The translations under genes were made by a program, and so were the position numbers. A DNA stretch of 20,558 nucleotides from a virus: the IMG/VR virus record IMGVR_UViG_3300011116_000334, positions 1-20,558 of that record, one strand, 5' to 3'. Shown piece after piece: positions 1 through 17,187 of this stretch. The stretch's first letter is position 1. Every line of letters starts with the position of its first letter. The notes below the pieces were generated by a model that searched no databases, was not told the DNA's origin, and worked only from the letters and a program-made list of their open reading frames with translations.

Positions 1-45
1 GTCCACATTCCCCCACAGTAAAATGCGGGGGATAAACCTGTGGAA

Positions 46-83
46 AACAATGTTGTCCACAGGAATCTGTGGACAACATTGTT
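46..83. repeat. 17-bp perfect inverted repeat built around two DnaA-like boxes
   Basis: Positions 46-62 and 67-83 are exact reverse complements separated by 4 bases (GAAT). Each arm contains one full TTGTCCACA/TGTGGACAA unit. A second, smaller palindrome overlaps the next box: 85-91 (ACAAGTT) pairs with 99-105 (AACTTGT) around TGTGGAC. There is no T-run after either arm, so a simple intrinsic terminator is unlikely. A dimeric protein-binding site or a cruciform/hairpin is more plausible. Confidence 0.8.
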
Positions 84-159
84 GACAAGTTTGTGGACAA
101 CTTGTGGAAAACCTCAATCGGCCAAAACATCAAAACTGTGGAAAACTAGATTTGTGAAC

Positions 160-165
160 GGGAGG
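160..165 (+). promoter_or_regulatory. Ribosome binding site that sets the terS start
   Basis: GGGAGG at 160-165 lies 9 bases before the ATG at 175. It selects this ATG over the upstream in-frame start at 40, whose codons would run through the repeat array. Confidence 0.7.
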
Positions 166-174
166 CTGTGGACA

Positions 175-417
175 ATGGCTGCTGGACCAATGGAACGTGC
201 GGTGCGTTCGACTCTGAAAAATCTTGGTGTGAACATCACCAAGGATGCACGTGGACGGTTGGCGGTGACTCTTGCATCCACGTTGGATGGTGACGCTGGA
301 ATGGCTACAGCAGCTGTGTCACGGGAACTGCGCGCAACGTTGACTGAACTGGAAGCACGGGAAAATGAAACAACAACTGATGGATTCGCTGCACTCATTG
401 CAGAACTGTCAGCCTAG
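175..417 (+). CDS. terS: Small terminase subunit-like protein (TerS), 80 aa
   Basis: This short, partly charged protein sits immediately before the large terminase, the usual place for the DNA-recognition subunit of the packaging motor. The sequence resembles the short TerS-like proteins of actinobacteriophages: an N-terminal MERAVRSTLKNLG stretch, then a helical AAVSRELRATLTELEA region (about residues 43-58) and an acidic tail. No helix-turn-helix can be identified with confidence. The start at 175 is chosen because a GGGAGG site precedes it and because upstream codons lie inside the repeat array. The 3' end overlaps the annotated terL start by 53 bases in another frame. TerS is the best reading from position and general resemblance; a small conserved phage protein of unknown role remains possible. 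Confidence 0.6.
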   Translation: MAAGPMERAVRSTLKNLGVNITKDARGRLAVTLASTLDGDAGMATAAVSRELRATLTELEARENETTTDGFAALIAELSA

Positions 418-16085: not shown

Positions 16086-16376
16086 ATGTTCGCACAGGTG
16101 TCCACACAGATTGTTGACAGCACCGGTTTTGGTGTTGCTGAATGGGTTGGTTTGATCACAGTTGGATGTTTGTTTGTTGGAACTGTGGTTGGTGCGATTG
16201 TTCAGCTGGTGAAGTTACGTAGGGAGAACACAGAACAACACGCTGAAGGTCGCGCAATCGTCACAGATGTGCGTGACCGGCTGTTGGATTTGCACACATC
16301 TGTTGGACGGGTCGATCAGAAAGTGGAGAAGCTGGATGAACGATTGGACCAACACGAACGATTCCACCACCGCTAA
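16086..16376 (+). CDS. Small membrane protein with cytoplasmic coiled coil (holin-like candidate)
   Basis: The 96-aa product has one hydrophobic segment (about 19-43, ending in GAIVQLVKLRR) followed by a charged helix to the end (VRDRLLDLHTSVGRVDQKVEKLDERLDQHERF) with heptad spacing of a coiled coil. This architecture resembles haemolysin XhlA-like and other accessory lysis membrane proteins. It directly follows the endolysin, which favours a lysis role, but a second and clearer holin lies at 17683. The start ATG is 7 bases after the endolysin stop, with no good ribosome binding site, so translation may depend on coupling. Its 3' end overlaps the next gene by 41 bases. Confidence 0.65.
   Translation: MFAQVSTQIVDSTGFGVAEWVGLITVGCLFVGTVVGAIVQLVKLRRENTEQHAEGRAIVTDVRDRLLDLHTSVGRVDQKVEKLDERLDQHERFHHR
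16325..16331 (+). promoter_or_regulatory. Ribosome binding site inside the preceding gene, sets the phosphoesterase start
   Basis: GGAGAAG at 16325-16331 ends 4 bases before the ATG at 16336. It selects this start over an earlier in-frame ATG at 16267 and explains the 41-base overlap with the membrane protein gene. Confidence 0.6.
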
Positions 16377-17187
16377 CGTTGAACCTCGCACACATCTGAT
16401 CATCCCGGACACCCAATCAAAACCTGATGTTCCAATTGATCATCTGTATTGGATTGGCGCCTACATGACTGCGTTGAAACCAGATGTTGTTGTGCATCTT
16501 GGGGACCATTTTGATCTTCCGTCCTTGTCCAGTTGGGACAAAGGAACCGCAGCGTTTGAGGGTCGCAGATATATCGAGGACATCGAAGCGGGAAACGTTG
16601 CGTTTGCTGCGTTGTGTAGCTCGATGGAACAACACAACCAGCATCAGCGTGCAAACCACAAGCCAATCTGGAAACCGGAACTGCACATCACGTTGGGCAA
16701 CCACGAACACAGGGTGACCCGTGTTGCAAATGAGGACCCAAAGCTGCTTGGTTTGGTGACTATGAATGACATGGATTTTCGTGGTTGGAACGTCCACCAG
16801 TTTTTGGAACCTGTGTGTGTGGACGGGATTTGGTATTGCCACTATTGGGCGAATCCTATGAATGGGCGTCCTTATGGTGGCAACGCTGTGTCACGTTTGA
16901 AAACGATTGGTCACACTTTTGTGCAAGGACATCAGCAAACGTTGGACTATGCAATCAGGTTCCTTCCGGGATCAGGTCAACAACAGTTTGGTTTGATCTG
17001 CGGTGCAGCATATTTGCATGATGAGGACTACAAAGGTCCGCAAGGAAACCACCATTGGCGTGGAATAATCGTGTTGCACCAGGTTGAAGGTGACGGTTCA
17101 GCAGACGCCATGTTTGTTTCGTTGGACTATCTGTGCAGACGATTCGAAGGTGTGCGCCTATCCAAATTCATGCAGAAAGTGTTTTGA
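16336..17187 (+). CDS. Calcineurin-like metallophosphoesterase
   Basis: The 283-aa product carries the ordered motifs of the calcineurin-like fold: PDTQ (24-27, metal-binding Asp25), GDHFD (56-60), GNHEH (121-125), a strand ending in CHY (His159), and GHQQ (188-191) in place of the usual GHxH. The substrate may be a phosphodiester or phosphomonoester, and the enzyme probably binds two divalent metals, although the altered last motif might change the site. Its location between lysis genes is unusual; a role in nucleotide recycling, DNA processing or counter-defence against cyclic nucleotides is speculative. The start at 16336 is supported by an internal ribosome binding site. Confidence 0.82.
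   Translation: MNDWTNTNDSTTANVEPRTHLIIPDTQSKPDVPIDHLYWIGAYMTALKPDVVVHLGDHFDLPSLSSWDKGTAAFEGRRYIEDIEAGNVAFAALCSSMEQHNQHQRANHKPIWKPELHITLGNHEHRVTRVANEDPKLLGLVTMNDMDFRGWNVHQFLEPVCVDGIWYCHYWANPMNGRPYGGNAVSRLKTIGHTFVQGHQQTLDYAIRFLPGSGQQQFGLICGAAYLHDEDYKGPQGNHHWRGIIVLHQVEGDGSADAMFVSLDYLCRRFEGVRLSKFMQKVF

Follow-up and report, generated by a model that had tools for sequence, protein, structure and literature searches.

DnaA-type box clusters next to packaging genes in several unrelated phages suggest a possible tie between phage DNA and replication under host control

Clusters of DnaA boxes and phage cos sites are each well known. The actinobacterial oriC is a cluster between dnaA and dnaN that has boxes placed closely head to tail. 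Its high-affinity box is TTGTCCACA (PMC4285127; PMC3583192), as described for M. tuberculosis and S. coelicolor (PMC4285127). In E. coli the DnaA-box consensus is TTWTNCACA (PMC5835720). Clusters are also found outside oriC at datA, which has 2 consensus boxes and 4 with one misfit (PMC5835720), and at other loci that titrate DnaA. DnaA boxes in the genome of Pseudomonas phage vB_PseuGesM_254 have been proposed as an origin (PMC11512268). Actinophages with a 3'-overhang cos are cut just upstream of terS, and an HNH gene lies on the left. In the lambda-type cosB the repeated R sites bound by TerS lie between cosN and terS. IHF acts there as an architectural helper.

The window, which is the whole stretch of 20,558 bases that was analysed, has 7 exact copies of TGTGGAMAA. 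All of them lie within 39-175, packed into 137 bp, and there are 0 copies elsewhere on either strand. The four copies of TGTGGACAA are at 53-61 (minus strand, TTGTCCACA), 68-76, 92-100 and 167-175, and the three copies of TGTGGAAAA are at 39-47 (TTTTCCACA), 103-111 and 137-145. Except for the box at 53-61 these are all on the plus strand, so 6 boxes point toward terS and 1 points away. The boxes at 92-100 and 103-111 are head to tail with a gap of 2 bp. Dinucleotide-shuffled versions of the complete window have 1.29 +/- 1.12 copies with a maximum of 5, which rules out a chance origin of the cluster, and the Poisson P for 7 copies in 175 bp is ~4e-18. The preliminary description of this DNA had claimed at least seven such 9-mers in the first 175 bases with the last one touching the start of terS, and the exact count bears out both points. 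It had left to be checked whether the 9-mer is unique to this locus, and within these 20,558 bases it is. Two more copies can be added to that first reading. One is TGTTGACAA, a copy with one mismatch at 80-88 on the plus strand. The other is a truncated eighth box at 1-7 on the minus strand, read directly as the GTCCACA of NNGTCCACA and cut by the start of the record with 2 bases missing.

The last box lies between a GGAGG ribosome-binding site (161-165, plus strand, read directly) and the start codon of the first late gene, and overlaps the A of its ATG. This gene (175-417, plus strand) is a putative terminase small subunit of 80 aa. It is called terS by position only because no family in Pfam or PHROGs matched it, and the ORF is conserved upstream of terL in >50 relatives. 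The large subunit gene follows at 365-1855 on the plus strand (PF03237, 1.4e-8; PF03354, 5.2e-7). Further along, a glycosyltransferase gene (PF13692, 5940-7352) lies within the structural module between capsid and connector genes, and there is a metallophosphoesterase gene (phrog_221, 16267-17187) in the late region.

The array does not lie inside continuing sequence, for it is almost certainly at a physical genome end. Many contigs with a related TerL start shortly before terS, or before a small gene that precedes it. Twenty contigs, including the window, share an identical start, exactly 8 bases before the TCCC of one conserved element. Base 1 of the window is therefore almost certainly the physical left end of a linear genome, the left end being 1-8 and its side of cos being followed at 9-32 by an inverted C-tract/G-tract element (TCCCCCACAGTAAAATGCGGGGGA). 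This element takes the form TCCCCCCCAC-n-GCGGGGGA and is found beside the contig start or the junction in relatives with and without boxes. The sequence left of the cut (TTTTTCTG...ACCCC) is also conserved with and without the array. The single-strand fold of the element has a z of -2.57 in the window and is near 0 in L039 and L015. A similar C-tract/G-tract element comes before terS in Rhodococcus phage RRH1 (L149, about 137-168), whose record does not start at cos.

The other side of the cut can be seen in relatives, since the right end of the window's own phage falls outside its record. The full-length relatives L039 (30,944 bp) and L043 (30,200 bp) both end in ...GCACTGCTGTCCAC. In L041 and L044, which span the junction, GCACTGCTGTCCAC is followed by ten bases, CCCGAGCCCC or CCCGAGTCCC, and then by the left end. 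The 10-nt gap is seen in the pairs L039/L041 and L043/L044. A 10-nt piece missing from both ends fits a 3' overhang that was lost in end polishing. The phage is therefore most likely of the cos type, with an overhang of this kind.

It is strongly supported, by every sequence test available, that the 9-mers of the window are DnaA boxes. They include exact copies of the actinobacterial high-affinity box, and TTTTCCACA fits the E. coli consensus. The way the copies vary is one such test, but the window alone is too small for it, so it rests on pooled lineages. Viral contigs were scanned with pair and triple box patterns whose seeds fixed A or C at position 7, so that T copies and position-5 variants were not selected by the scan. 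This brought up arrays in phages unrelated to one another. The lineages pooled are A (the window clade), B (L246 and others), D (L220), E (L172, L247) and F (L233). Their pooled arrays have 98 exact boxes with A, C or T at position 7 and never G, though it must be noted that T but not G was admitted when cluster sizes were counted afterwards. One-mismatch copies in the same lineages fall at positions 5 and 9 in 22/34 cases against a same-contig background of 19% (P 9e-9, which is optimistic since members within a lineage are not independent). These are the places of the N in TTATNCACA and of the outer T, where DnaA tolerates variation. Lineages A, B, D and E all have head-to-tail boxes that are 11-12 bp apart.

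The triple box pattern has 2 matches in 297 Actinomycetota genomes, and one of these is ~170 bp downstream of a dnaA homologue. In six genomes the boxes close to dnaA are a mixture of types, so the comparison to host oriC speaks for compatibility only. The host of the window clade is most likely actinobacterial, judging by a WhiB-family regulator in the close relative L010 (listed at L082:2491-2952, minus strand) and by the TerL relatives, which are located mostly in actinobacterial genomes. The match to actinobacterial DnaA boxes claimed in the preliminary description thus stands at the sequence level, on the exact high-affinity box, the DnaA-type degeneracy, the triple beside dnaA and the WhiB of L010. 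We infer that host DnaA would bind the array.

The array is not a general feature of this terminase family. Using the window TerL as a query we found 73 related loci in viral contigs. Boxes are present at a readable cos-terS region only in L008 (87% TerL identity) and L010 (85%), and ~60 others have none. The preliminary description had looked to close relatives for the array, and it is there in the two closest readable ones and absent beyond them. L008 reads across cos and has 5 boxes. Two are on the left just after the HNH gene, which itself has a TOPRIM/AAA_25 primase-helicase on its left, and on the right of cos are 2 exact boxes and 1 variant (TGTGCAAAA). L010 has 2 boxes right of cos, and the left side of cos is outside its record. 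Some of the box-less relatives have only a few tens of bases between cos and terS. Many others (L011, L014, L015, L043 and similar) have a small Prim-Pol gene there, for example PF09250 at L043:131-778. No substitute repeat array was found at cos in the box-less relatives. Packaging in this family therefore seems not to need the array.

Arrays beside terminase genes recur in phages that are not related to the window. Lineage B has a TerL of a different family (phrog_9) and a different TerS. Searches with PF03237 and phrog_2 miss this terminase, so its TerL was confirmed with phrog_9. All 7 of the 7 members examined have 7-10 boxes upstream of terS, with TerS identities of 71-100%, and at most 1 box in the remainder of the locus. 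Three contigs other than L246 (L196, L268, L330) share a start within 1-2 bases. It lies ~32-34 bp ahead of the first box and marks cos in this lineage too. The order in L246 is primase-helicase, an HNH-like small gene, boxes, cos, boxes, terS and TerL. The small gene matched no Pfam or PHROGs model and its HNH label was given by eye. Boxes therefore flank cos on both sides in L008 and in L246, each time beside a primase-helicase. In lineages C, C', D, E and F, too, an array is adjacent to terS or TerL. The first late gene is directly preceded by the array in A, B, C, E and F, whereas in C' and D the array is between terS and TerL.

It must be noted that the enrichment is modest. TerL lies at most 2.1 kb from the array in 6 of the 12 lineages in which TerL was found against 2.6 expected by random placement (P 0.016), in what is a small and non-exhaustive sample. 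The large phages L313, L253, L230 and L258 have their arrays elsewhere, with the terminase far away. Four AT-rich and apparently T4-like contigs (L162, L191, L209, L212) have DnaA-box arrays that are intergenic and away from the terminase. When the array was compared with phage isolates by BLAST, no hit extended over the greater part of it (best E ~2). Arthrobacter phage Hum25, the isolate with the nearest lineage-B TerL (47%), is free of boxes over its first 2.6 kb. One can imagine that unrelated tailed phages have repeatedly placed arrays for host DnaA at cos and terS so that DnaA couples replication to packaging. For example, DnaA would occupy the DNA flanking cos during replication and leave when phage copies dilute it. 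We consider this general proposal distinctly unlikely.

Lineage C offers a comparison between phages that differ little. There are 72 close relatives with TerS 88-100% identical, and in 21 of them terS is preceded by 7-17 DnaA boxes. Boxes are few or absent in the remaining 51, and most of those inspected carry ~10-bp repeats of TGACCCAA or TGACTCAC. TerS proteins that are 96-98% identical are paired with different repeats, which means that the repeats of this lineage are not read by TerS. The swap means that the DnaA-type array of lineage C is one allele of a variable element. In the near-identical podoviruses L394-L473 the allelic arrays of TTGTCCACA, TGACCCAA or TGACTCAC lie within the 800 bp before terS. 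At the arrays of this lineage a phage factor may play a part. Its isolate relatives MW202483 and OR003940 have no box array upstream of terS.

We argue that the reading to prefer for the window is a DnaA-dependent replication origin that spans the ligated ends, but we prefer it tentatively and would stop short of calling it probable. We take the region to be the left cohesive end of a siphophage of actinobacteria, in which the array is packed into the space from the cut site to the first late gene. Annealing and ligation of the ends would then place the array between the replication genes (primase-helicase and HNH) and terS, and boxes would flank cos on either side as they do in L008. Host DnaA would bind these boxes cooperatively, and this would mark or melt the origin for the phage-encoded primase-helicase. 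An origin is our first choice because the replication genes meet cos there, boxes are on both sides and the replication genes seen in L008 and L010 include none that was recognised as a separate initiator, though the genomes of this clade are incomplete and one may have been missed. Several points weigh against an origin. Relatives that lack boxes evidently have another way of replicating, and L010 has only 2 boxes right of cos. There is also no clear AT-rich unwinding element beside the boxes: windows of 40 bp reach at most 62% AT, and the array region is 55% AT against 49% for the window. We dropped GC skew as proof of an origin. It flips at cos in L008 (-0.18 to +0.16, with all counted genes co-directional), but it also flips in six relatives without boxes (L021, L032, L061, L128, L057, L050) and does not in seven others (L035, L037, L041, L054, L064, L043, L039). 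The sign change varies within the family in a way unrelated to the boxes, so it does not discriminate between an origin and two of the other explanations, a switch for the late genes and a sink for DnaA.

If the array is a switch, DnaA bound there would repress or activate the promoter of the late operon that terS leads. Phage replication would multiply the boxes and dilute DnaA, and late expression would change. DnaA is known to regulate the transcription of box-bearing promoters such as mioC (PMC5835720), which we count in favor of this scenario. The place of the array directly upstream of the first late gene in five lineages fits it, as does the window box that overlaps the start codon. However, that box position (167-175) is not retained in L008 or L010, and the location of the array between terS and TerL in C' and D also speaks against it. 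We regard it as unlikely, although less so than the explanations that follow. A decoy like datA would tie up host DnaA and slow initiation on the host chromosome. Dense exact boxes would serve this purpose, and the big phages do carry large clusters far from their terminase. But a decoy could sit anywhere, so it leaves the arrays that adjoin the terminase or straddle cos unexplained, and we think it quite improbable.

The alternative in the preliminary description was a packaging recognition region, and only half of it survives. The region is indeed a cos end, and the array occupies the position of cosB from the cut site to terS, as it does in all 7 members of lineage B with another terminase. 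A cosB-like element could be bound by TerS, or by DnaA as an architectural helper. However, conservation of the terminase and of cos does not extend to the boxes: ~60 relatives of the same TerL family lack them, many of these have the same cos element, and no repeat takes their place. It is also hard to see why one 9-mer should be common to unrelated terminases, or why nearly identical TerS proteins in lineage C should be paired with different repeats. Since the boxes track neither terminase nor cos, TerS-binding repeats were rejected as the main reading. A cosB that binds TerS is unlikely, and we give a packaging element of either kind little credence. The same low credence goes to the idea that these are iterons of a phage-encoded DNA-binding protein that match the DnaA consensus by accident. 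The swap of boxes for TGACCCAA or TGACTCAC among close relatives in lineage C speaks for such iterons, and L008 does encode a small helix-turn-helix protein. Against this, the same 9-mer with DnaA-type degeneracy is found in the unrelated lineages A, B, D, E and F, for which a protein specific to one phage would not account.

If DnaA does act at these sites, some phages would leave the timing of their replication, late genes or packaging to the initiator of the host cell cycle. This would give a testable link between the growth state of the host and the development of largely uncultured actinophages. The recurrence of arrays beside the terminase in unrelated lineages and the repeat swap in near-identical phages are natural comparisons for such a test.

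The known systems each match the locus in part. Like the actinobacterial oriC, the window array has the same 9-mers, including the high-affinity TTGTCCACA, and places boxes closely head to tail. Unlike it, the array is at a phage end beside terS without dnaA or dnaN, has no clear AT-rich unwinding element and is far shorter than the ~950 bp oriC of Streptomyces. Like datA and other titrating loci it is a DnaA-box cluster outside oriC, but it has at least 7 exact boxes and sits at a phage end. It resembles vB_PseuGesM_254 in having DnaA boxes in a phage genome, but the origin there is an Ori-Finder prediction around an AT-rich region, and the available part of that description gives no link to cos or terminase (PMC11512268). 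The lambda-type cosB has the same position and also consists of repeated short sites, whereas the boxes of the window are not conserved with the terminase and the same 9-mer is found with unrelated terminase families. We found no description of a cos inside a DnaA-box cluster in the open-access literature, which is weak evidence of absence as most subscription papers were outside the search. The 3'-overhang cos of actinophages agrees in the cut just upstream of terS, in the HNH gene on the left and in the 10-nt gap of relatives, which is consistent with a 3' overhang. What the window adds to it is a DnaA-box array on the terS side, and L008 has boxes on the other side too, so what appears to be new is the placement of such a cluster around a phage cos.
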